From a virus, in the IMG/VR virus record IMGVR_UViG_3300047287_000455, positions 1 to 23,664 of that record: a stretch of DNA of 23,664 nt; one strand, written 5' to 3'. Positions 1,024 to 22,437 of this stretch are shown one piece after another. The notes beneath the pieces are model-generated. The model did no database searches and was not told the DNA's origin. It saw only the letters and a program-made list of their open reading frames with translations. The stretch's first letter is position 1. The number at the start of each line of letters is the position of its first letter. Both the position numbers and the translations under genes were made by a program.

Positions 1024-1545
1024 ATGGCAAATAAAACATTTGATGATTTTTATAATGATTACATGGGGATAATGGATTCAGGTATATTTTATGAATTACG
1101 AAGAAACATCAGACCAAATATTCGTGTATCAGTTACGACCACAGATAGTACCACTAGTATTGTAAATAAATTAAAGCTTCAGTTAAATAAGACACCAGGG
1201 CTATCAATTCCAGCACTAGATAAGATATTACAACAAGCAATCAGTGCTAATGTATGGCGTCTTCGTAATGGGATTGGTGATATTATCAGCAGTGGTGATT
1301 TATTAAGATCACAAAGTATCGATTTAACATCTGATGGTTTACGGATCAGTTATGATGTACCGTATGCATCATTAATACATTATGGTGGATATATAAAACC
1401 ATATGGCAATCAAGATGCACGTTTAGTTTATATTCCAGGGCGACCATGGGTACAGACGGTATTGGATGGTGGATTTAATAATTTCGAGTTATCGGTAGTA
1501 TATTCGGATATTATCCTCAGGATATTAAAAGAATTTTCGGTGTAA
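1024..1545 (+). CDS. Tail completion / neck protein (HK97 gp10-like or gpS-like)
   Basis: A 173-residue protein. Around residues 65-120 it has a helical stretch followed by a region of the form YASLIHYGGYI, and after about 20 residues comes YIPGRPWV. A Tyr-Ala then His-x-Gly-Gly then a Pro-x-Arg-Pro pattern is typical of phage tail-completion proteins (HK97 gp10-like and phage virion morphogenesis families), which sit at the top of the tail and let it attach to the head. The length matches these families (about 130-180 residues). No Shine-Dalgarno is visible before the ATG. It lies in the same AT-rich operon as the unknown gene before it and the chaperone gene after it. Confidence 0.82.
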   Translation: MANKTFDDFYNDYMGIMDSGIFYELRRNIRPNIRVSVTTTDSTTSIVNKLKLQLNKTPGLSIPALDKILQQAISANVWRLRNGIGDIISSGDLLRSQSIDLTSDGLRISYDVPYASLIHYGGYIKPYGNQDARLVYIPGRPWVQTVLDGGFNNFELSVVYSDIILRILKEFSV

Positions 1546-1607: not shown

Positions 1608-2219
1608 ATGGATCTCAGTAAGCTGCCGTTTGTTGTCCAACCAAGGCGGCAACCAATCATGGAACATATTGGTTCTCAGGAGGCTGGATATATTAAGATT
1701 GAGCGTCGTGGTTATCTGAGTAGTGGTGAGAAATCATTTGTACAACAAGCGATTGCGAGTGATGATGGAACAATACGTATCATTGCATTAGCGCGACAGA
1801 TCAGTTCTGATAATAACATATCATTAGAATCTGCATATCAAGATGTTATAAAAATCATCAGCGGCAGTTTAGAACGTGATGAGCGATTGAAGCAAATTGA
1901 GATACAATATTTCACGGATTTCACTGAGTTATTGAATAGTCTGAGTATGATGCAAGCAAAGGAGCAATTAATTACTGCATTATGTTTATTACGTTATCGC
2001 GTAAATCCAGAGCTTGATGTAAATGATGTAATGGAGTTACATCCTGATATCATCAGTGGTTTAGCTGAATTATATCGAGACGAGGAGAAGCGTAGTATTG
2101 AGAAATTTGAGCAGACAACGAAGGATACGGAGTCAACAGAGCAGACGGGGGCAGTGGATACTGTTGATGTTGTTGCTATTGAAAAAAAGCGCTCCAGGCG
2201 CGTGACGGCGCCAACCTGA
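1608..2219 (+). CDS. Tail assembly chaperone, short form (lambda gpG analogue)
   Basis: A 203-residue, mostly helical, acidic protein. It opens with a conserved-looking segment (PFVVQPRRQPIMEHIG, then IKIERRGYLSSGEKSFVQQ) of a kind found in cyanophage tail assembly chaperones. In siphophages this protein binds the tail tube and tape measure proteins before tail polymerisation. The last codons contain the slippery run A AAA AAG at 2183-2189. Ribosomes that do not slip finish nine codons later at the TGA at 2217-2219; those that slip back one base continue into the frame of 2270-2839. The short form should be the major product, as in lambda G/GT. The start is the ATG at 1608, with only a weak upstream AAG. 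A GGAATACT element sits 31 bases before it. Confidence 0.88.
   Translation: MDLSKLPFVVQPRRQPIMEHIGSQEAGYIKIERRGYLSSGEKSFVQQAIASDDGTIRIIALARQISSDNNISLESAYQDVIKIISGSLERDERLKQIEIQYFTDFTELLNSLSMMQAKEQLITALCLLRYRVNPELDVNDVMELHPDIISGLAELYRDEEKRSIEKFEQTTKDTESTEQTGAVDTVDVVAIEKKRSRRVTAPT
2183..2212 (+). promoter_or_regulatory. Programmed -1 ribosomal frameshift site
   Basis: Seen directly: the heptamer A AAA AAG occupies 2183-2189 in exactly the zero-frame phase needed (codons GAA AAA AAG from 2181). A 7-base spacer follows, then a perfect stem GGCGC (2197-2201) with GCGCC (2208-2212) closing a 6-base loop. After a -1 shift the next codon is GCG at 2189 and the frame is open through 27 extra codons (ALQARDGANLIPFDKYYWQ, then LKREFPGD) into the frame of 2270-2839. 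Known: this heptamer is the efficient slippery site of E. coli dnaX, and tail chaperone genes of siphophages use -1 slippage as a rule. Inferred product: 194 + 27 + 189 = 410 residues. Confidence 0.87.
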
Positions 2220-2269
2220 TACCATTTGATAAATATTATTGGCAATTAAAACGTGAATTTCCTGGTGAC

Positions 2270-2839
2270 ATGGAGTTTACGTATGACAGATATTGGGAAT
2301 TACCGTATCCATATATTATGGATGCGATAATATCAATAAATAAATTACGACACCAGGAATTACATGAGAATGAGATACCAATTGCGGTCTTAGCATGTCA
2401 GCAAGCTGAGATTAACAGGGACCGTAAGAAACAAAAGAAACCATATACAACATCTGATTTTTATTGTTATCCGATTCAAGCTGAGCAAGATACCATTGAT
2501 GCTAGGTATGCGGCAAGTGCTATTCGTTTAATTGAGTTGGGGATGTTTCCAAGGTGGGGTTTATTTATTTATAAAGAATTAATAAAGAATGCGGATGAAT
2601 CATCAGCAGCCGAGATTCTAGCTTATGTGTGTGATACGGCAATAATACTGGCACCTACTGATGCATCTGGTGCATGTCGTGGTTTATTGATTGCGATGGA
2701 AGCAGCATCACATCGTATTTTACATTTCGATCAAATTGATCGCAATGGACATGTAATTACTGATTGCATTAACATAAGAATGCCTCATATTAATGGTAAG
2801 GTAGCTGCAGTGGAGAATTGTATACTGGATATCGTATGA
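2270..2839 (+). CDS. Tail assembly chaperone frameshift extension (lambda T part of gpGT)
   Basis: A 189-codon frame counted from the first ATG, but its frame is open back to the frameshift point at 2189 and has no ATG, GTG or TTG start with a ribosome binding site upstream. It is therefore best read as the C-terminal part of a 410-residue fusion made by -1 slippage in the preceding gene. It opens YDRYWELPYPYIMDAI and is helical, with several cysteines (for example in YVCDTA and SGACRG). In lambda the T domain recruits tail tube subunits to the tape measure-bound chaperone. A separate protein started at 2270 cannot be excluded. It ends 44 bases before the convergent HNH gene. Confidence 0.83.
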   Translation: MEFTYDRYWELPYPYIMDAIISINKLRHQELHENEIPIAVLACQQAEINRDRKKQKKPYTTSDFYCYPIQAEQDTIDARYAASAIRLIELGMFPRWGLFIYKELIKNADESSAAEILAYVCDTAIILAPTDASGACRGLLIAMEAASHRILHFDQIDRNGHVITDCINIRMPHINGKVAAVENCILDIV

Positions 2840-2882: not shown

Positions 2883-3254
2883 TTATAAAATATATATATC
2901 TTTTACCTGTTGTTCAGTAATGACTTGACCTGTTTCCAACCAATGGTCGATGCGACATTCTTTCCACTGTTGATAGAACGATTGTTGACGGAACCATGAC
3001 CGCCATTCTTGTGAGCCCTTATCTAAATTGCATGATTTATCGGCTGGAACTATGTTATCTGTCAGGTCTTCGCCTCCTTTGCATCTTGCTTTGACGTGAT
3101 CCAGTGTCAAACTGGAGTCATCGATAGGCGGCTTTCCGCAATAGGCGCAACAATTCCCCCAAGTATCTTTAATTGACTGTCTCCATTTTCGTTTCGCTTC
3201 TTTATGCGTCAGGGCTTCCATATTGTACAAATAATCGTAGATACGACGATGCAT
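2883..3254 (-). CDS. HNH homing-type endonuclease
   Basis: A 123-residue protein on the strand opposite to all flanking virion genes. Zinc-type CAYCG motif at residues 36-40, then LTLDHVKARCKGGEDLTDNI with the general-base His53 after Asp52, Asn67, and a closing SCNLDKG where the third motif residue is Asn76 (an HNN-type active site). In most relatives the segment reads ACxSCN; here the first of those cysteines is Asp72, so one expected zinc ligand is changed. The C-terminal WRSWFRQQSFY-type helix is common in free-standing phage HNH nucleases. The start has a strong AGGAGG four bases before the ATG, unlike the flanking genes. It likely nicks or cuts related phage genomes lacking the gene and spreads by repair. 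It lies between genes and splits no ORF. Confidence 0.92.
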   Translation of the reverse strand: MHRRIYDYLYNMEALTHKEAKRKWRQSIKDTWGNCCAYCGKPPIDDSSLTLDHVKARCKGGEDLTDNIVPADKSCNLDKGSQEWRSWFRQQSFYQQWKECRIDHWLETGQVITEQQVKDIYIL

Positions 3255-3451: not shown

Positions 3452-3883
3452 GTGTCACAATCCAGAGTAGAATCACCGCTTGATATTTACAATGAATTAT
3501 CGGATGACACTGAGTTTATGTCATATGTTGGTCAATATATATTCAACAATGAATCTACTAGCGATGCGCTCAGTATTATAACACCTGGGAAGCCATTAAC
3601 TGGAACTTCTGGTATTAGCGGCCTTGAGGTTATCATTCACGATGCGGCTAATTTGTCGAGAATTGATTATTTGACTGATGCACCTGATATTTCTTCAACC
3701 TATAGTGTATTTTTAATTTTGTGGGATCCGGCTGATGGTATCACTTTAAATAATGCTGGCAAACGTATGATGCAAATATTTGCAGGTGCCAGATTAATAC
3801 AGACTGTCAGTAACAGTAATAATGAGCATTTATTGGTACAAAATATCATGGAAATTCCGAATAATGCACAAATACTAATCTAA
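3452..3883 (+). CDS. Tail terminator-like protein
   Basis: A 143-residue protein started by a GTG; no in-frame ATG is available near the start and no strong ribosome binding site is seen. The mixed alpha/beta look (an N-terminal helix, then strands in GLEVIIHDA and YSVFLILWDP, then a helix NNAGKRMMQIFAGAR) and the position directly before the tail tube gene fit the small tail-terminator proteins (lambda gpU class) that cap the tube and stop its growth. No diagnostic motif is recognised, so the role rests on size, order and fold impression. A GGAATCCTAG element lies 31 bases upstream of the start and recurs ahead of the next gene. Confidence 0.72.
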   Translation: MSQSRVESPLDIYNELSDDTEFMSYVGQYIFNNESTSDALSIITPGKPLTGTSGISGLEVIIHDAANLSRIDYLTDAPDISSTYSVFLILWDPADGITLNNAGKRMMQIFAGARLIQTVSNSNNEHLLVQNIMEIPNNAQILI

Positions 3884-4000: not shown

Positions 4001-4600
4001 ATGGCAAACATTTCAACTGCCTTCGGTTATGATGTTTTTATCATCCCGATGGCTGCCGCTAACGTTGACGTTGCCTTCACTGGCATTACTGGTGCTGTTG
4101 GTGCTGGCGCCGGCAATTTCATTGACACGACCGCTATTGTCGCTCCTGGCGATACTGTCAGCTATACCGGTGGTATTTTCACCGTTGAGGCTGCTGCATT
4201 CGGTATGGATGGCGCCGACGCTCCTGTGAAGTTGTATGGCCTGACCAACGCATCCCTGGAGACTGGTACCAACTCCGAGGAAGTGGTTACCTATGACTCT
4301 GATACAGGTGGCTTCAACTTAACCCTGCCTACTTCCAAGACCTGGAGTGTATCATTGGCTGGCGTGGCTGACTTCAAGGACGCTGGCTATCAGATTCTGC
4401 GTCTTACTGAGCAGAATACTGTGAAGGATGCTCTGCGCGTGAAATTCGGCCGTGTAGGCCCCACGGGGACCACTGAAGCGATCTACGGCTATGGCACCCT
4501 CAGTGGCTACACCGAGTCCATTGAGGCCGGTTCTATCGTGTCCTGGGAAGCAACCCTGGAGGGTTATGGCCCGTATGTGATTGACATTGATGCCAACTGA
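4001..4600 (+). CDS. Major tail tube protein
   Basis: A 199-residue protein whose hexameric rings stack to form the tail tube around the tape measure protein. The C-terminal half is diagnostic in style: TWSVSLAGVADF (about residues 127-138), DAGYQILRL, then LRVKFGRVGPTGTTEAIYG and SIEAGSIVSWEATLEGYG, as in siphophage tail tube proteins of the TP901-1/phage_tail_2 kind. Position fits too: after a terminator-like gene and before the tape measure. Codons are markedly more GC-rich than in the operon at 282-2839, as expected of a very abundant protein. There is no Shine-Dalgarno before the ATG. A strong intrinsic terminator begins 26 bases after the stop, so the gene is probably its own short transcript with limited read-through. 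Confidence 0.92.
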   Translation: MANISTAFGYDVFIIPMAAANVDVAFTGITGAVGAGAGNFIDTTAIVAPGDTVSYTGGIFTVEAAAFGMDGADAPVKLYGLTNASLETGTNSEEVVTYDSDTGGFNLTLPTSKTWSVSLAGVADFKDAGYQILRLTEQNTVKDALRVKFGRVGPTGTTEAIYGYGTLSGYTESIEAGSIVSWEATLEGYGPYVIDIDAN

Positions 4601-4694: not shown

Positions 4695-7600
4695 ATGGCC
4701 AAGGGTAGTGGAGATCTGAATTTTACAGTTAACTTTGATACCCAACAGGCTGGGCGCGAGATTGCTACATTGCTGCAGGAATTTGCGAGTGGATCTGAAA
4801 AGGCTGGCAATAAATTAGAACGTGCCCTTGGGGGTTCTGTTGAACAAAAACTAGTAATCAGGACTGTACGTGGCGATAACGGCGTCAAGGAATTAAAGAG
4901 CGAATTGATTACCGTTAGATCTGAAGCTGATAAATTAAAAAATGCTTTACTGCAGGCAAATAAAGTCCAGCCCCTTAGCGTAACCAGTATAAGGCAGCAA
5001 ATCAATCAAGCTTCGCAACTGCGAGATTCAATTGCAAAATACGGTGTAGCATTAGATGAAATAAACAGAAAGAGCATTTCAGGCGCTCAAATCAGTAGTC
5101 AATGGGTTGAGGCCGATGCCAGGGTAAAACAGCTTACTCAATCTCTGAGGCTGGTTGAATCTGCGAACAGGGGTTTAGGCGGATCTTTGGCTGATGGTTT
5201 CGCCAGATTTATTTCAATCGGTGATAAATTACAAGAAATTGTTGGTATTTTTCAGAGTGTTAATATTGCAGTTGCCGCACTGACTAGCCCAATCAAAAAT
5301 GCTATCAATGCACTTGCAGACTTAGATGCATTTGGCCTATCATTTAAAGCAATTGGAGCTGGCGCTGGTATTGCTGCAACCGCATTTGGCAATGCGACTA
5401 ATATTGCACTTGGTCTGGGTGTTAATATCAAGACTGTTCGCGAAGGTTTTCAGCAATTATCACCTGTTATTTTAAATACTGGCGGTAATATTGAGGATGT
5501 TTCCAAAATTACAGAGTCACTTTCCAGTCGATTTGTTGCATTTGGTCTGAGTGCTGACAAATCAAGGCGCGTAATGAATGGTGTCATCCAGGCATTCGCT
5601 AAGGGAAAATTACAAGCTGAAGAATTAACACAACAAATTTCTGAGGCTGATCCTGCATTCAAGACTGATTTTGCGCAGGCATTATTTAAGGCACGTGGTC
5701 AACTTGGTGCACTGAGTTCCGAGATCAAGGATGGTACGGTAAAGTCACTTGAACGGTTAGTAAAAAGTGGCAATATAACTGCTGATGTACTGAGAGTTGT
5801 TATTCCATTAATCACTAAATCTGATGTATTATTTGGTAAATTAGGCGATTCTGCGGCATCTGCTGTTGATGGTTTCCGCAGGGGCGATGCAACATTAAAT
5901 CAGGTCAGAACTCAATTTGAAAATTTAAATCAATTGAGCTTAGAACGTCTGGCAAATGTCAGCAGGCCAGTCATTACTGTATTCTTAGAATTACAAGCAG
6001 TTGTAACTGATTTTGTTACTCGGATTTCAAAATTAAGTGCAGTAAAAGAAATCGTTACATTCTTTGAGGCGGCGGGTAGGGCAATTGTCAATTTGACGAC
6101 TGGGTTCTTGTCATTAGTTGAACTTAGTACAAGGGTAACTGGATTTGTCCTTCAATTTGTCAATGTATTTGCTAAAATTCCGGGTGTTCTTGAGATAGTT
6201 GCCATTGCGGTTGTCGCCAAATTTCTGAATCCCGTACAAAAAACAATTCAATCCGTTGGTGGCCTCAGTCAGGCGTTAGTAAATCTTGCCAAGTCTTCTA
6301 ACCTAGTAAAAAATAGTGGCGGCGGGGCGGTAAGTGGTACTGTATTTAATACTAAGGATTCAGAAGTTGCGTTGGTTGCACAACGTAAATTAAGAGAGGA
6401 ACTAACAAAACCACTAACAAGTGGCGTTGCAGCAGCTTATACCAAGCAAACAGCAGAAGCAATTAAATCAGATGGCATATTAGAGACACTCACTGGCAAG
6501 CAGCGTAAGCGTTTAGATACTTTGCAAGTGAAATTGGGCGAGTTAACGCAAAGGTATTCAAATGCAGCATCGGAATTTCGTTCATTAAAAGTAAATCCAG
6601 ATGCATCAAAGATAGATATTACGTCCGCTGAAAGTACTTTAAATCAATTAAAGAAAGAAATCAATGGCACGTATAAGCAAATCTCTTCAATTACTGGGGT
6701 ACCGATCAAACCTCAGCTTTCTATTCCAACCCAACAAATCGATGAATTAGGTGCATTGTTTGATTCATATCAAAGCAAAGCAGTCACAGCATATGCAAAC
6801 GTAACTGCTGCTTCTAATTCAACGCTACCAGCGATTGAATCTCAAATAAAAAAATTGCAACAACAAAGAGATGCTGCAAAGAGTAGTCTAGATGCATTTA
6901 AAGGAATATCATACTTACCTGGTGCAGATGAAGCCAGGACTAAGTTTGAGCAATTGGATAAGGCCCTGGAATCCGAAAAACAGAAAGCATTCCAGTTAAG
7001 TAACAGTTATTTAGCATTGACCAAGTCTGAACTGGATTTGGCGGATGTGACTGGCACTTTATCGGAAGGGCAGAAATTATCTGAACAACAGCTTAAGAAG
7101 TTAGGTACGGCAATTAAAGTTAATACGTTTGCGTATGACGATGCAGTTGCCAGCTTAAATGGCTTTAAAAATGAACAGGATGCCTTAACACAGCAATCCA
7201 GAAAATTATCAGATGAATTAAGCAATGGAGGTGCTGCAATCGGTAGTGATCGATATCGACAACTGAAACTAGAAATAGAACAGGTGAATGCACGTCAAGC
7301 TGATTTGACTGGTGAAATTCAGCGTGGTACGGCAGCAGTAGATGCTTTCAGAAACAAAGGCATAGCTCTTGAAGGTGTTTTAGCTGAAGGAGCAAAATCA
7401 GGTAAGGGTTTCCGTGGACTGGAGACATGGCTGAGAAAAGGTGCAGTTGAGGGTCGTGGCCTCCAGAAGGTCATAGGTAGTCTTGGCACAGGTATAATTG
7501 GATTTGGTCGTGGTATTATTGATGTCACCAAAGGACTGATAAGTTCTTTTAAGGAAATTGCTAGCCAACTGGCAATTACCGCTGTGTTTGCTATTGGAAT

Positions 7601-10352
7601 GCAGGCATTCGCTAAAGCAAATGAGATATCAGCAAAAGAAGTAGAAAAAAATAAAGGATTTGTTGATTCGCTGAATGCTTCTACAAAAGAATTAAATGAT
7701 TTAACAAATAGCTATGGCAATGCCGTTAACAGTGCAAGTCAGAATACTATTGATTTTAAATCTAATTTATCTGGAACAGATCAAATATTAATTGGCCTTG
7801 GTGGTGCCATTAAATCTGCTACTGATGCTCTTACTGGATTATTTGGTGGTGGCAAAAGCAGGCAATTTGACGAAGCAACCGGAACATTCAAGGAGACTAC
7901 AAAAGAAGTGAATGTCATGGCACTTGCTCTCGCTGGTGCAGCCCTTGGATTCGTATTCCTAGGTGGCCCTATAGGAGCTGCCATTGGTGGCCTCGCTGGA
8001 TTTACTGTTGGTCTTTTTGCGGCCAATGCAAGTCTTACCGAAATAAAAGAAAAAGGAAAAGGATTCCGTGACTCCCTGGAGCAACAATTCCAAGCTACTG
8101 TTAAGCTTGGCAATGCTTTGAAAAATAATTTAGGAAAGGCTTACAGTGAAGCTGCTAAAGACGTAAAATCCGGGAAAATTACATCTGAAGATGGATTTGC
8201 GCAGCAAAGTATAGCAATTGGAAATGCTGTAAAACAATATAAATTATATAATGAATCAGTCAATAAAACTTCCGATAAAATTAAAGGAATAACAGCAAGT
8301 CTTAATGAACAAAAGGCTGCAAATGCAAAACTGAAGGCAGAATTATCGAAACCTGGTGGCTACAGATCAATGGGCGAAGATTTTCTCGGCATGTCTCAAT
8401 CATCCGAACAAAAATCTAGAGAGCAGGCAATAAAACAATTAGAGCAAGGAAATGAAAAAGAAAATCAACTTATTCAAACACGAAGAGAACTAACTGTGCA
8501 ACAAAAAACTTTGATGAAACAGTTGAATGAATTAAAAGCTGCCTATCCAAGATTGACCAATGAAATGATCCTTAATGGCAATAGTGCTACCAATTTATCT
8601 GAAAAGTACAAAAATGCAAAAGACAGTTTACAAGAACTTGATCCCAAACAGCTTGGCGCTGAATTTGATGCAACAGCCAAGAAGGCTGGTTTATTAAAAG
8701 TTCAACTTGAAGGTGTTGATCAACGTGCGCAAAGTAGTGAATTGAAAGGTTATATTGAAGGTATCAGAAAAGGGCTCGGCAATGGCGAAATTGAAAATAG
8801 CCTAAAAAATATTGATAATATCGTCAAATCCCTGGAAGAGCGTTCGATATTACTTGATATCAGCTCACCTGAACTGCCTACTGTCATTGCTGAATTAACT
8901 CAAGCAAGAGAGAAATCAGATCAACTGAATGGTCGAAAAGCCAACATTGAAATCGCTGTTACGACAACCGGCCTGCAGACCGGTCAACTTTCTTCTACTC
9001 AAAATAATATTAATCGTCTAATCAGTGCCTATGAGCAGTTGTCTGGGACTGTCGTTATTGGAACACCACAATTTGAACAAATTAAGACATTTAAGGCTGG
9101 ACTGGCCGACCTTGCCAGCTATGTTGCCAAAACAAAATTAGAAATACAAAAAGAAAACGCAAGTCTGCAAAACACAATTAAGGATAATGAAATAAAAATT
9201 AATCTTAATCCGGGTCCATTACGTGAATCGCTTACAATTGCTAATCAAGCAAATACTCAAATCAAGAATGCGGCATTAGATTATGCGCAGACAATAGGAA
9301 ATGTGGAACAAATGCGTGCGTCTGGGCTGGTCAGTCAAGGCATAGCCAATGAGATGCTAAATCAAGCTGGCCTTAAATTCAAAGAAAGTTTAACTAGTGG
9401 TGCGGCCAGTATAGCTGAGGCTGCCAGATCAGCGAAAGAATCGCTAGATTCTGCCCAAAGTGCATACAGCAATCTAGTTTTAAGCAAGCCACAATTCTTT
9501 ACCTCCGAAGAGATAAAGGCAAATGCACAAAAAATTATTTCAGAGACTGAGAGATATGTGAATGAGCATGGTATTAAGGTTAACTTCGCTGGAACACCTG
9601 ATCAACAATTACAGCAAATGGCAGATTTTCTTGCAACCAGGAAGGAGGCCGAAAAATTAACAAATACAATTTCCGAAGCGCAAGCAGCAATCGTTAACCT
9701 GGACAAGGCATTCGCCAAGCTACAGGCAGGAGCGGGTGCACTGGCCGGACTCGATTTGAGTATGCCAGTACTGAATTCCTCCCAAATTGGTGATAACTTG
9801 AAGTATGCTTCTGATCAAGCCCAGTTAATATCTAATACCTTAAATGATTTACCTAAGGAAATCTCGATTAAAGTTGTTTACTCTGGCAATCCTCCTAGGT
9901 TTACTGGTGGCCCCGTTAGTGCCGGCCAGGCCTATACTGTTAACGAATTGGGCCAGGAAGGCTTCCTTAGTAGTGCTGGTAGGGTCAGTGCCATTAACAG
10001 GCCTAAGAATGCCTCCTGGCGGCCTCCATCGTCAGGTACGGTGATTCCTGCTCATATCTGGAAGCAGATGAAAGGTAATAGTGCATCGAAAGTTGATGTA
10101 TCTGGTAATTATACTCGTCAAGGTAGTACTGTTTCACTGGTGACAGCATTGGGATCTTATCTATCTGCTCATTCTGCTGTTACTTCCAGGACCAATGGCG
10201 AAACCGCTAGGATACAAGCACATCAAGCTGGTCAGATTGAAAAATTATCTAGAGCAATTAATAAATTAGCTGATAAAAACTGGAACATTGGAGTCAATGT
10301 ACGGAATACTGGTAATACAGCCTATCTAGATGCGATTAACAGGATAATCTGA
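4695..10352 (+). CDS. Tail tape measure protein
   Basis: A 1885-residue protein, by far the largest in the window. Residues about 212-375 look like the conserved N-terminal tape measure domain (repeated GA helices, then AFAKGKLQAEELTQQISEA). Hydrophobic segments lie near residues 955-972 and 1073-1110 (ALAGAALGFVFLGGPIGAA), candidates for membrane insertion during DNA ejection. Much of the rest is predicted long helix/coiled coil rich in Gln, Lys and Glu. Residues about 1735-1790 carry the usual closing signature (FTGGPVSAGQAYTVNELGQ, then EGFL). At about 1.5 angstrom per residue the tail would be close to 280 nm if unprocessed. No Shine-Dalgarno is seen; CCTAGGAATCC lies just upstream. The stop overlaps the next start by one base (TGATG), so the two are coupled. 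Confidence 0.97.
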   Translation: MAKGSGDLNFTVNFDTQQAGREIATLLQEFASGSEKAGNKLERALGGSVEQKLVIRTVRGDNGVKELKSELITVRSEADKLKNALLQANKVQPLSVTSIRQQINQASQLRDSIAKYGVALDEINRKSISGAQISSQWVEADARVKQLTQSLRLVESANRGLGGSLADGFARFISIGDKLQEIVGIFQSVNIAVAALTSPIKNAINALADLDAFGLSFKAIGAGAGIAATAFGNATNIALGLGVNIKTVREGFQQLSPVILNTGGNIEDVSKITESLSSRFVAFGLSADKSRRVMNGVIQAFAKGKLQAEELTQQISEADPAFKTDFAQALFKARGQLGALSSEIKDGTVKSLERLVKSGNITADVLRVVIPLITKSDVLFGKLGDSAASAVDGFRRGDATLNQVRTQFENLNQLSLERLANVSRPVITVFLELQAVVTDFVTRISKLSAVKEIVTFFEAAGRAIVNLTTGFLSLVELSTRVTGFVLQFVNVFAKIPGVLEIVAIAVVAKFLNPVQKTIQSVGGLSQALVNLAKSSNLVKNSGGGAVSGTVFNTKDSEVALVAQRKLREELTKPLTSGVAAAYTKQTAEAIKSDGILETLTGKQRKRLDTLQVKLGELTQRYSNAASEFRSLKVNPDASKIDITSAESTLNQLKKEINGTYKQISSITGVPIKPQLSIPTQQIDELGALFDSYQSKAVTAYANVTAASNSTLPAIESQIKKLQQQRDAAKSSLDAFKGISYLPGADEARTKFEQLDKALESEKQKAFQLSNSYLALTKSELDLADVTGTLSEGQKLSEQQLKKLGTAIKVNTFAYDDAVASLNGFKNEQDALTQQSRKLSDELSNGGAAIGSDRYRQLKLEIEQVNARQADLTGEIQRGTAAVDAFRNKGIALEGVLAEGAKSGKGFRGLETWLRKGAVEGRGLQKVIGSLGTGIIGFGRGIIDVTKGLISSFKEIASQLAITAVFAIGMQAFAKANEISAKEVEKNKGFVDSLNASTKELNDLTNSYGNAVNSASQNTIDFKSNLSGTDQILIGLGGAIKSATDALTGLFGGGKSRQFDEATGTFKETTKEVNVMALALAGAALGFVFLGGPIGAAIGGLAGFTVGLFAANASLTEIKEKGKGFRDSLEQQFQATVKLGNALKNNLGKAYSEAAKDVKSGKITSEDGFAQQSIAIGNAVKQYKLYNESVNKTSDKIKGITASLNEQKAANAKLKAELSKPGGYRSMGEDFLGMSQSSEQKSREQAIKQLEQGNEKENQLIQTRRELTVQQKTLMKQLNELKAAYPRLTNEMILNGNSATNLSEKYKNAKDSLQELDPKQLGAEFDATAKKAGLLKVQLEGVDQRAQSSELKGYIEGIRKGLGNGEIENSLKNIDNIVKSLEERSILLDISSPELPTVIAELTQAREKSDQLNGRKANIEIAVTTTGLQTGQLSSTQNNINRLISAYEQLSGTVVIGTPQFEQIKTFKAGLADLASYVAKTKLEIQKENASLQNTIKDNEIKINLNPGPLRESLTIANQANTQIKNAALDYAQTIGNVEQMRASGLVSQGIANEMLNQAGLKFKESLTSGAASIAEAARSAKESLDSAQSAYSNLVLSKPQFFTSEEIKANAQKIISETERYVNEHGIKVNFAGTPDQQLQQMADFLATRKEAEKLTNTISEAQAAIVNLDKAFAKLQAGAGALAGLDLSMPVLNSSQIGDNLKYASDQAQLISNTLNDLPKEISIKVVYSGNPPRFTGGPVSAGQAYTVNELGQEGFLSSAGRVSAINRPKNASWRPPSSGTVIPAHIWKQMKGNSASKVDVSGNYTRQGSTVSLVTALGSYLSAHSAVTSRTNGETARIQAHQAGQIEKLSRAINKLADKNWNIGVNVRNTGNTAYLDAINRII

Positions 10353-17804: not shown

Positions 17805-18542
17805 ATGTCCGAAGAAAATCAATCAGCACTTGAGATGAGTGCGAATCCCGCCAATGAACAGCCTGTTGGCGAGATCTCTGGCAATCGCAGCTATTCCGAA
17901 GAGGAAGTTCAGAACTTATTAAAAGCATTAAAGTCTGAACGTGAGGCACGTAAAGTATACGAAAAAGAAGTAAAAGAAAAATCAGTATTACTGGAGAAGT
18001 TTGCTGATACAGATCCAGAGGAATTCCGCAAATTACAAGAGGAAGTAGCCACTGCTGCCAGGGAAAAAGCTGCCGTAGAGGAGCGTACTGCTTTACTGGA
18101 AGAAAAGTATGGTTCCCAGGCTGCTGAAGCAATTAAAGAGCGAGAAACAGCTACACGTGAACTGCAGGAATTCCGCAAACGCTATGCTCTAGAAAAAGTA
18201 TTTTTTGCTGCTGGCGGCCGTACCGATTCAGCAGATAATGTGTCATTTTTTGATATGCTAGCAAATCAAATTGGCAGTAAATTTCGACTTGAAAAAGATG
18301 GCAGTATCACTGTTGTCGATAATGCTGGCGATCCTGTACTAGATAAAGAATCCGGTCGAAGAATCAGTCCTGAAGATTATTTGTCTCAATTCAAGACCCA
18401 TCCAATCTATGGTACTTTCTTTAAAGGTAATAAAGGATCGGGTGCGGGCATCGGTTATGGTGGTACAGATTCTAATGGTATGACTACGGAAGATTTGGGA
18501 TCACTTAGTCGTGACGAACTGTTCTTAAAGGCATTTGGTTAA
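17805..18542 (+). CDS. Capsid scaffold protein
   Basis: A 245-residue acidic protein directly before the major capsid gene. Residues about 28-130 are a near-continuous charged helix or coiled coil (EEVQNLLKALKSEREARK through KERETATRELQEFRKRY), typical of phage scaffolds. Residues about 131-215 look folded, and a Gly-rich linker (GNKGSGAGIGYGG) leads to a short helical tail (LGSLSRDELFLKAFG), where scaffolds usually bind the coat protein. It would template prohead assembly and then leave. No protease motif is visible in or near it. There is no Shine-Dalgarno before the ATG. A hairpin terminator follows, separating it from the capsid transcript. Confidence 0.86.
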   Translation: MSEENQSALEMSANPANEQPVGEISGNRSYSEEEVQNLLKALKSEREARKVYEKEVKEKSVLLEKFADTDPEEFRKLQEEVATAAREKAAVEERTALLEEKYGSQAAEAIKERETATRELQEFRKRYALEKVFFAAGGRTDSADNVSFFDMLANQIGSKFRLEKDGSITVVDNAGDPVLDKESGRRISPEDYLSQFKTHPIYGTFFKGNKGSGAGIGYGGTDSNGMTTEDLGSLSRDELFLKAFG

Positions 18543-18567
18543 TAAATTAATTAAATTTTAATTATAT

Positions 18568-18588
18568 GGCCAGTTTTAACTGGCCTTT
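18568..18588 (+). terminator. Intrinsic terminator after the scaffold gene
   Basis: GGCCAGTT (18568-18575) and AACTGGCC (18578-18585) form a perfect palindrome, with the loop probably TTTA or TTTT, followed by TTTGTT. The stem is strong but the T tract is short, so partial read-through into the capsid gene is likely. Confidence 0.72.
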
Positions 18589-18729
18589 GTTATATTTTTG
18601 GTATTATAAGTTTGAGTACCCAGCCCTGAGGTGGTTGTGATGACCTATCGGGGAGGGTCTAACGCAATGGATGAGACATCCTGAAGCGATTTACCTTTCC
18701 TGTCAACTGTTCATCCGTTTATTACTACC
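18586..18729 (+). promoter_or_regulatory. Capsid gene promoter region and long leader
   Basis: The interval from the scaffold terminator to the capsid ATG. Its first part is AT-rich (a TATTAT/ATTATAA motif at about 18601-18608 is a -10 candidate, without a good -35). Then comes a G-rich stretch with small pairings: GACC (18641-18644) with GGTC (18655-18658), and GGATG (18669-18673) with CATCC (18677-18681) around AGA. The bases before the ATG are pyrimidine-rich and unstructured, with no Shine-Dalgarno. It may be a leader that stabilises or controls the capsid mRNA. It matches no riboswitch or ribozyme consensus that I can recognise. Confidence 0.35.
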
Positions 18730-19629
18730 ATGGCACTTACCCTTGCAGAGGCTAAGAAGCACTCTACTAATCCTCAGGAACTGGCAATCGTCACCGAACT
18801 GGCTGCCGGCCCCCTGCTGCAAAATCTGCCCTTCCGTGAAGTGCAGGGCAATGGTTTATTCTGGAAGCGTGAAGAGTCCCTTGGGGACGTGGGCTTCCGT
18901 AATTTCAACGCTGGCTACACTGAGAGTTACGCTACTGTTAAGCAGCATAGCGAAGCCCTGAAACTGTTTGGTGGTGACATTAAAGTTGACCGCGCCATCG
19001 TTGATCTGGAAGGTCCCGAAGCTCGGGCTTATCAGATCCAATCGAAGACCCGCGCTATGCGCCTGTCTTTCGAAGCACTGTTCATCAACGGTGATTCGAA
19101 CAGCAGCGGTGGTGAATTCGATGGTCTGGCTAATCGCCTGCCTAGCACCTCTAGTCAGTACATCGAGAACTCTGCTACCGCTGATCTGCTCGACCTGGGC
19201 GCCCTGGACGAGGCTATTGATGCTGTGGACGCCCAAGGTGGCCAGAAGTATCTGGTGATGTCCAAGTCCGCTCGTCGCGCTCTGACGAAGGTTGCTCGCA
19301 CCTCGACTCAGATCGACATCATGCGTGATGAGTTCGGCTATCAGCAATTGGTGTATGGTGGCCTGAATGTACTGGAACTGGACCGCGATCATCAGAACGT
19401 GGCCATCCTGGATAGCGATCCGACCGATCAATCCATTTACGTAGTTGCTTTCGGTAACGATCTGCTGACCGGCCTTCAAAATGGCGGTCCTCAGGTGCGT
19501 GACCTGGGTGAAGCTACCGACTCGCCTGTCCTGGTGACTCGCGTTGAGTGGTATTGTGGGTTGGCTCTGATCAATGGTAGGGCTGCCGCTCGCCTTGCTA
19601 AGATCGACGCAACCGCTGCACTTGCCTGA
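18730..19629 (+). CDS. Major capsid protein (HK97-fold type)
   Basis: A 299-residue protein that forms the icosahedral shell. It starts MALTLAEAKKHSTNP; residues about 117-133 carry the FINGDSNSSGGEFDGL segment common in this coat protein class. LVMSKSARRALTKVART (about residues 175-192) and a closing GLALINGRAAARLAKI also fit, as does the position after a scaffold gene. There is no sign of a fused protease or a long cleaved N-terminal delta domain. Codons are the most GC-rich of the head block (CTG, CGC, GAC, ACC), as for the tube protein, fitting very high expression. The ATG lacks a Shine-Dalgarno. A terminator bounds it on each side, so it is probably a monocistronic late message. Confidence 0.95.
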   Translation: MALTLAEAKKHSTNPQELAIVTELAAGPLLQNLPFREVQGNGLFWKREESLGDVGFRNFNAGYTESYATVKQHSEALKLFGGDIKVDRAIVDLEGPEARAYQIQSKTRAMRLSFEALFINGDSNSSGGEFDGLANRLPSTSSQYIENSATADLLDLGALDEAIDAVDAQGGQKYLVMSKSARRALTKVARTSTQIDIMRDEFGYQQLVYGGLNVLELDRDHQNVAILDSDPTDQSIYVVAFGNDLLTGLQNGGPQVRDLGEATDSPVLVTRVEWYCGLALINGRAAARLAKIDATAALA

Positions 19630-19777: not shown

Positions 19778-20104
19778 TTGGAACCAGGAAGGTACGACAT
19801 TACAATACATCAAAGGGCAACCTTTAAGCGTGCTATTGACTTACCGATTGACTTAAGTGGTCATGAAGTTTATGCACAGATATGGGATGAGAAGCGCAGG
19901 AATAAAGTGGCAGATTTTGATATAACAATAACTGACGCGGTAGAAGGCCAGTTGCAGATGAAGATTGACTGGCAAGATACTACATTATTTAAGAAGGCAG
20001 CATTTTGGGATCTGCAAGTTGTATATGACAATGGCGACCGCGATTACTGGCTGGAAGGTGAGGTTACCATTGACCCAGGCCTGACCGCCAAGGAGGATGC
20101 CTGA
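19778..20104 (+). CDS. Small beta-rich tail protein upstream of the collagen-like fiber
   Basis: A 108-residue protein read from a TTG start (TTG GAA CCA GGA). No in-frame ATG or GTG lies near it, and the next Met is past residue 60, so TTG is the best choice although no ribosome binding site is visible. The plan ([68 protein letters not shown]) resembles the N-terminal beta domain of phage baseplate upper proteins, which attach receptor-binding fibers. The gene overlaps the fiber gene by one base (TGATG), and its last codons supply that gene's AAGGAGG ribosome binding site. A fiber adaptor role is inferred. Confidence 0.78.
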
Positions 20105-22437
20105 TGCCTGATGCAATAGTAGAAATAATTCAACAACAGGTAAATGTTTCCGTAGAAACAATTGGAAACGAGCAAGTTGTTGTAGTTACTACTGCACCAG
20201 TCGTCCAGATTGTTGATGTTGGAATCGTGGGTCCTCAGGGCCCGCAGGGTGCCACAGGTGTTATCGGTCTTACAGGTTCTACTGGGCCTGTGGGTGAGAC
20301 GGGTCCCATTGGTATTACTGGCTTCGTTGGTGTTACCGGCGCTACAGGTGCTATTGGTGTCAGTGGTGCAACTGGCATTGATGGGCCCACTGGACCCAGT
20401 GGACCAACCGGTCCTATAGGGCTCACTGGCCCGATCGGTGCTACCGGTGTGACTGGTGCCATAGGAGTCAGTGGGGCAACTGGTGTCATTGGTATTACGG
20501 GAGCAACCGGCGTTATTGGTATTTCTGGAGCTACTGGCATCGTTGGCCCTAGCGGTCCAACTGGACCTAGTGGGCCCATGGGATCTACCGGCCCCGTTGG
20601 TGTTACCGGTGCGACTGGAATAATTGGTCCCAGTGGGGTCACTGGTGCTACTGGCGTCGTTGGTGTCACTGGAGCTACTGGCATAATTGGTCCCAGCGGT
20701 CCGATTGGACCTAGTGGGCCTACTGGTGTTACCGGTGCTACTGGAGTCGTTGGTTCCAGCGGTCCAACTGGACCTACTGGACCCGTCGGTGTGACTGGTG
20801 CTACCGGTGTTGTTGGCGTATCTGGTGCTACTGGCGCAACAGGTGTTATTGGAGTATCCGGCGCGACTGGCATTATTGGCGTCAGTGGTGCGACGGGAGC
20901 TACTGGTGTTATCGGTATAAGCGGCGCTACGGGCGTTGTCGGTGTTACCGGCGCTACAGGTGTTATTGGTGTCAGTGGTGCAACTGGTGCCCAGGGTCCT
21001 ACTGGTGCTATTGGCGCCACAGGTCCAGTAGGTATTACGGGTGCAACCGGTGTAGCTGGCGCAACAGGTATCCAAGGCCCAAGTGGTCCCACTGGTCCGA
21101 CTGGTCCGACCGGCCTCAGTGGTCCAATTGGTATTACTGGTGCCACTGGTGTTACCGGTGCAACTGGTGTTGCTGGCATCAGCGCGAGTGGTCGTATTTG
21201 GTATTTTACACAGCTTGATTCTGATATTAGTGGCTATGAAAGCTTGGTGCCAGATTCACCGGATTCTGCGCCCCAGGACGATATGAGTGCTGTTACTACT
21301 AGTTCCAGTGGTGAGGTGCTAATTGAAGAATTTGCTACAGTAGCCGGTGATCCCGGAGTCGAGGAGATTCCTACTGGTGAATATGAAATCCGGTTCTGGA
21401 GCTATGTTTCCAGTAACAACGGAGATACTAGATTGGTATTCCGTGTTTATAAACGTAGCATAGATAGTACTGAAACTGAACTATTTCATGTTGTTTCACC
21501 AGAAATCAATGCTACTGCCTCTAGTTATTACAATCAAGTAATTGTAAATACACAATCAAATGTGATCGATCCTACCGATAGAGTCATCACTAAGGTATAC
21601 GCAAAAACAACTAGCACTGGTAATATTACTGCTCACTTTGTTCATTCTGGAAATACCCCTAGCTCTTGGAAGACTGCTATCACGCTGGGCTATGTCGGCC
21701 CTCAGGGTGCGACTGGTCCTACCGGGGTTCAAGGTCCGACTGGACCCGTTGGCGCGACTGGCGCTACTGGACCTCAGGGCCCAACTGGTGCTACTGGTGT
21801 CGAAGGCCCAACTGGTGCAAGTGGTATCATTGGCACGACTGGCGCAACGGGTGCTACGGGCGTAATTGGCGTCAGTGGTGCCACTGGGGTAACTGGTGAT
21901 ATTGGTATTTCTGGTGCCACTGGGGCAACTGGCGTTATTGGCGTCAGTGGTGCCACGGGCGTTATTGGTATTACAGGTGCAACTGGTGTTATCGGTATCA
22001 GTGGTGCCACGGGCGCTACGGGCGTTGTTGGTGTTTCCGGCGCTACTGGCGCTACTGGTGTTATTGGTGTTTCCGGTGCCACTGGAGCTACTGGCGTAAC
22101 TGGTACTGCAGCACCAAAAGCATTGACTATTATCAATCCCACTAGCTCCGAAGATGTTGTACTATTTTTTACCACTACTAGTATTACTTTATCGCAAATT
22201 CGATCGACAGTAATGGGTTTTACACCGTCTATTACATTTTCCGTTCGCTATGGTACTGACATTTCTGCTGCCGGAACGGAGGTAGTGACAGGTGGTATTA
22301 CTTGCACCAATACCACTACGGGATTAAGTACCACAATCTTCAACAATGCCACGATACCAAGTAATAATTTTGTATGGCTGATCACTAGTGCAAGTAGCGG
22401 TACAATCACTCAACTTGCCGTTTCGTTATTATTCTAA
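20104..22437 (+). CDS. Two-stalk collagen-like tail fiber
   Basis: A 777-residue protein. Residues 1-39 are a non-collagen anchor. Residues 40-360 are 107 unbroken Gly-X-Y triplets, about 361-531 form a beta-rich globular domain ([12 protein letters not shown] through AITLGYV), 532-669 are a second stalk of 46 triplets, and 670-777 are a C-terminal beta domain ([19 protein letters not shown] and on to LAVSLLF) of a type recurring in cyanophage-like virion proteins, probably the trimerising tip. The Y positions are mostly Thr, Ser, Ile or Val; charged residues are nearly absent and there is no Lys or Arg in either stalk. It would form a trimeric fiber for host attachment. It starts at ATG 20104 after AAGGAGG with a 7-base gap, the best ribosome binding site on the plus strand here. 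Confidence 0.92.
20221..21183 (+). repeat. First collagen-like Gly-X-Y repeat tract (107 triplets)
   Basis: 963 bases encode uninterrupted Gly-X-Y. A higher-order 27-base unit (GAT GVI GVS, with GIT or GVV variants) recurs many times. Glycine codons vary freely among GGT, GGC, GGA and GGG, so the DNA is less repetitive than the protein. Confidence 0.95.
21697..22110 (+). repeat. Second collagen-like Gly-X-Y repeat tract (46 triplets)
   Basis: 414 bases encode uninterrupted Gly-X-Y with the same GAT GVI GVS unit as the first tract, beginning GPQ GAT GPT and ending GVT GTA. The shared unit suggests that one stalk was copied from the other by duplication or recombination within the gene. Confidence 0.95.

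Follow-up and report, generated by a model that had tools for sequence, protein, structure and literature searches.

A probable programmed -1 frameshift in a putative tail assembly chaperone pair conserved among cyanosiphophages

Introduction

The locus described here raises the question of whether two overlapping reading frames in the tail module of a virus encode two separate proteins or, by a backward slip of the ribosome, a short protein and a longer fusion with a common N-terminal part. It lies in the window, i.e. the whole stretch of 23,664 nucleotides that was analysed, an IMG/VR record (IMGVR_UViG_3300047287_000455), for which a first-pass annotation made from the sequence had proposed a -1 frameshift giving a 410-residue tail chaperone fusion. 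Frameshifting of the -1 type in tail chaperone genes is textbook knowledge (reviewed in PMC5009743; Xu et al., cited in PMC10885494). For cyanosiphophages, we found no earlier report of such a frameshift in a literature search with little coverage of subscription journals. New here are the cyanosiphophage family, the mis-splitting of the pair in public records, the swapped heptamers, the lack of a common 3' stimulator and the displaced position of the pair.

Results

In the frame of the ORF at 1608-2219, referred to as G-like, the codons at 2181-2189 read GAA AAA AAG, and a recomputation of coordinates and phase confirmed that a slippery heptamer, A AAA AAG, stands in exact zero-frame phase, as the first-pass annotation had claimed (Table 1). 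The -1 frame has stops only at 2180 and 2837 and is, therefore, open from 2183 to 2839, so that the claim of an uninterrupted frame held as well; joining 1608-2189 to the T-like extension would give a fusion of 194 + 216 = 410 residues. The 7-base spacer and the 27 bridging residues that had been described are both present. The AlphaFold2 model of the G-like protein, for which as for the T-like part the alignments were built from window and contig sequences only, consists of a beta-hairpin followed by helices.

Table 1. Features of the tail module in the window
Feature	Position	Strand	Evidence
Neck/tail-completion protein	1024..1545	+	phrog_26 E=2.8e-4, phrog_5 E=6.4e-4; synteny
G-like ORF (203 aa), normal product, probable tail assembly chaperone	1608..2219	+	ORF list; AlphaFold2 pLDDT 86; a homologue at this position in every locus whose sequence covers it
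Slippery heptamer A AAA AAG, zero-frame phase	2183..2189	+	Codon-phase check; AAAAAAG/GGGAAAG/GGGAAAA in 72/72 loci
-1 frame extension, T-like (216 aa)	2189..2839	+	AlphaFold2 pLDDT 88; conservation; phrog_34388 E=1e-31
27 bridging residues 5' of first -1-frame ATG (2270); conserved IPFxxYYWxLK helix and FPGD	2189..2269	+	
7-nt spacer, heptamer to hairpin	2190..2196	+	
5-bp GC hairpin GGCGC(GUGACG)GCGCC, -9.5 kcal/mol, possible local stimulator	2197..2212	+	Folding
HNH endonuclease gene, antisense, tail-to-tail with T	2883..3254	-	PF01844
Small conserved gene (143 aa), probably tail terminator (position only)	3452..3883	+	
Major tail (tube) protein	4001..4600	+	phrog_38654 E=1.6e-81; PF06199 E=3.3e-7
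Tape measure protein (1885 aa)	4695..10352	+	phrog_2335 E=1.2e-13

The window virus is a close relative of viruses infecting cyanobacteria. Relatives of both halves are present in the Synechococcus phages S-CBS2 and S-CRES1/2/3 and in many IMG/VR contigs, and relatives of T also in the Prochlorococcus phage PSS2, while no homologues of the pair were found in bacterial genomes. S-CBS2 gp15/gp16 (GU936714), the pairs of S-CRES1/2/3 and PSS2 gp64/gp65 have the same -1 arrangement with a heptamer, which is AAAAAAG except in S-CRES3 and PSS2, where it is GGGAAAG; identity is about 36-42% in the Synechococcus phages and lower in PSS2.

The comparison covered 72 distinct loci (S-CBS2, S-CRES1/3, PSS2 and IMG/VR contigs), which form 65 clusters at 95% nucleotide identity and 56 at 70%. 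The second ORF is in the -1 frame relative to the first in 72/72 loci, and each 0/-1 overlap has a single X XXY YYZ heptamer in phase, namely AAAAAAG in 48, GGGAAAG in 22 and GGGAAAA in two. Thus, a slippery heptamer is retained at the equivalent point in the homologues, which the first-pass annotation had suggested checking. Elsewhere in the G genes of the 72 loci, the same three heptamers occur in phase a single time in 12,762 codon steps; the in-phase heptamer in the overlaps exceeds chance. On the T tree, which is a quick version, the heptamer type was swapped at least four times, with two of the swaps forced by well-supported branches, and slipperiness was kept through all of them. G ends with a stop codon immediately 3' of the heptamer in 25 loci.

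The bridge between the heptamer and the first possible start of the second frame carries evidence of a different kind. For codons lying between the G stop and the first possible T start, the pairwise differences were 0.31, 0.29 and 0.58 at the first, second and third position, respectively. Because one of the search patterns falls inside the bridge, the test was rerun to check for selection bias. The third-position bias persisted when only bridge residues not covered by the pattern were used (0.30/0.32/0.65) and also when the loci were limited to those lacking it (0.36/0.32/0.56), which excludes the search pattern as its source. Such coding selection upstream of any start suggests that coding downstream would need the shift. 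Moreover, AlphaFold2 places a helix at residues 13-23 of the T-like part (pLDDT about 90), wholly within the bridge, and a product started at ATG 2270 would, therefore, miss the helix with which its domain begins.

Stimulators of -1 frameshifting, either a 3' structure or an upstream Shine-Dalgarno sequence, are common but not obligatory. The hairpin described in the first-pass annotation is real, but it is weaker evidence than had been implied: the stability of the 71-nt stretch is like that of its shuffles (z 0.03), 2.8% of positions drawn at random from these genes have an equally good hairpin, and a counterpart is absent in the window's nearest relatives. For the family as a whole, the search for a 3' stimulatory structure gave a mean z of about -0.2 to -0.5, the same as for other stretches, and the best hairpins were no better than those at random positions (p=0.25). 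Because it is not conserved, the hairpin in the window is at most a local enhancer. Upstream of the heptamer, a Shine-Dalgarno-like GAGG is present in part of the A-type loci only and absent from the window, and the codon bias is marginal (23 GAG codons seen against an expectation of 16.1, p=0.011 with no correction for kinship); an upstream Shine-Dalgarno sequence as a general stimulator was rejected on these grounds.

The genes are arranged in the order neck, G, T, antisense HNH, terminator-like, tube and tape measure in all loci that extend far enough for the order to be seen. The product of the terminator-like gene had no family or structure matches. In the window, the gap between the tube and tape measure genes is about 95 bases, which leaves no room there for another G/T pair; the tube and tape measure matches lie further apart in some relatives, so that this argument applies to the window only. 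From the length of the tape measure protein, a tail about 280 nm long would be expected by the usual rule of thumb.

The antisense HNH gene directly follows T in 71/71 loci holding that stretch. In most loci, its 3' end overlaps the T stop, and it abuts T otherwise. Its invariant residues include C36, C39, D52, H53, N67, N76 and several tryptophans; the zinc cysteines and the catalytic D-H and N residues are invariant. In PSS2, no gene is annotated at the corresponding position (about 6651-7088).

The designation as a tail chaperone agrees with architecture and synteny, by which there are two predicted products with a common N-terminal part from tail-module genes. In profile comparisons, no homology to the lambda proteins was detectable for either half, and direct comparison of G and T with lambda G and T (hhalign) was not significant. 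Matches to PF06223 (Phage_tail_T) were obtained for 12 of 71 T members, all below the cut-off and the best with E=6.4e-4 (PSS2), and none for the window's own T. The weak viral fold matches that Foldseek gave for the G model include a protein from Xylella phage Sano labelled "Pre-tape measure frameshift protein G" (E=0.078, prob 0.77). Neither half matched a solved structure (PDB) by sequence or by fold, and a scan for relatives of lambda T returned only copies about 99% identical to it. T belongs to phrog_34388, for which the function is listed as unknown, and G is without a PHROGs family. In the S-CBS2 record, the neighbours are labelled structural and gp15/gp16 are not, which is consistent with a chaperone outside the virion and goes no further than that.

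Discussion

Based on the data reported here, we consider it very likely that a programmed -1 ribosomal frameshift joins the G-like and T-like frames into a 410-residue fusion, and the comparison with relatives makes a -1 shift at this site nearly certain as far as sequences can tell. The site, the reading frame, their conservation and the coding selection on the bridge are read from the sequences directly; the slippage itself and its rate we infer. In this model, most ribosomes would read 1608-2219 and release the 203-residue G-like protein, while a minority would slip back by one base with two lysine tRNAs on A AAA AAG, pair anew with AAA AAA and continue in the -1 frame as far as 2839, giving rise to the G-T fusion. 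By analogy with lambda G/GT, we infer the chaperone role and the contacts with the tape measure and tube proteins: the short form would probably coat the very long (1885-residue) tape measure protein, the rare fusion would recruit tail-tube subunits, and the ratio of the two would matter for tail assembly.

Slippage of two lysine tRNAs on the ribosome is the simplest reading. Alternatively, T could be an independent gene, translated from the ATG at 2270 or through re-initiation once G has terminated, with the slippery site there by chance. An ATG is indeed present at 2270, it is the likely choice of an annotation, and GenBank records use such starts. However, any start would come after the conserved IPF..YYW.LK..FPGD segment with its helix, the second frame being free of ATG, GTG and TTG between the heptamer and the conserved W18 in 70/71 loci; an independent start in place of a slippery site, named in the first-pass annotation as evidence against the fusion, was thus not seen. 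In the bridge, the preference of variation for third positions of the -1 codons also speaks against an independent start and the in-phase heptamer in all loci against a chance site, so that we regard this explanation as very improbable, although a minor T-only product from 2270 may be made. Equally hard to credit is transcriptional slippage, by which an extra A in some mRNAs would make the fusion. A run of seven A's is present in 40 of the 48 A-type loci and would suit it, whereas the other eight have only six, 24 loci have GGGAAAG or GGGAAAA instead, and the A run always ends in AAG in codon phase, for which a slipping polymerase has no need; these three observations together disfavour it. 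Polymerase slippage also usually needs longer runs.

That an assembly or sequencing indel in the homopolymer splits a single gene might be suspected for a seven-A run in a metagenomic contig. The relatives refute this, leaving it practically no probability: the same -1 relation is found in 72 distinct loci, including the isolate genomes S-CBS2, S-CRES1, S-CRES3 and PSS2, and also at GGGAAAG sites. By contrast, the frameshift may be real and its product something other than a tail assembly chaperone, such as a neck factor or another factor of tail assembly. The placement of the pair before the tube gene and the lack of significant homology to lambda G/T would fit such a factor, but the pair lies inside the tail module with a two-product G/GT architecture, has weak matches to Phage_tail_T and to a frameshift protein G fold, and is the only chaperone candidate in the window's tail module. 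We consider this alternative unlikely, and, based on position, architecture, the weak Phage_tail_T matches and the weak fold match, suggest that the G/G-T pair is probably a tail assembly chaperone.

The design principles of the pair are overall similar to those of phage lambda G/GT (NC_001416), with an upstream G-like ORF, a -1 T-like extension and an X XXY YYZ heptamer shortly before G ends; the 22 GGGAAAG relatives even use the exact lambda site. However, there is no detectable sequence homology to lambda in either half, the T-like part has 216 residues and a C-terminal beta domain compared with 144 residues in lambda, and in 25 relatives the G stop directly follows the heptamer, unlike in lambda. 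The pair is also found before the terminator-like and tube genes, while the lambda pair is between the tube and tape measure genes, a position that is usual for chaperone genes but not obligatory. Because the profile comparison with lambda G and T was negative, we describe the pair as putatively lambda-like in its working and do not file it in the lambda G/T sequence families. The frameshift of Escherichia coli dnaX leads to early termination, and its upstream Shine-Dalgarno sequence and hairpin are well known. The dnaX heptamer is the same A AAA AAG as in the window (PMC5009743); unlike dnaX, the family described here has no conserved 3' hairpin and the upstream GAGG in part of its members only.

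In GenBank, such pairs are entered as two separate genes with the second truncated at its N-terminus. For instance, S-CBS2 gp16 is annotated from 9910 and its homology begins at 9790. The expectation of the first-pass annotation that automatic annotation would split the pair and miss both the fusion and the bridge is, thus, borne out by the records of S-CBS2 gp15/gp16 and S-CRES1 gp72/gp73. With these findings, a group of cyanosiphophages gains a likely tail-chaperone pair that annotation now splits and truncates. Because the heptamer changes between A AAA AAG and G GGA AAG with the shift always kept and no common 3' RNA structure, these loci also offer a natural collection in which stimulators of -1 shifting in cyanobacteria could be tested.

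The fixed HNH gene is an odder feature of this neighbourhood than the frameshift. Homing endonucleases are usually sporadic, and the fixation of the HNH gene here suggests that it has a function for the phage. We speculate, as a rather unlikely idea, that the G/T pair and the antisense HNH gene form one co-evolving unit, in which the role of the HNH enzyme, or of convergent transcription from its gene, would be in the assembly of tails or the control of late genes rather than that of a passing homing endonuclease, and that the pair was displaced ahead of the tube gene together with it. Elsewhere in the window, the scaffold and major capsid genes are at 17805-19629, downstream of the tail genes, which is an unusual late-gene order. 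Finally, a long collagen-like protein of 777 residues with GATG/GPTG repeats, probably a fibre, is encoded at 20104-22437, and its repeats give rise to long spurious ORFs on the opposite strand.
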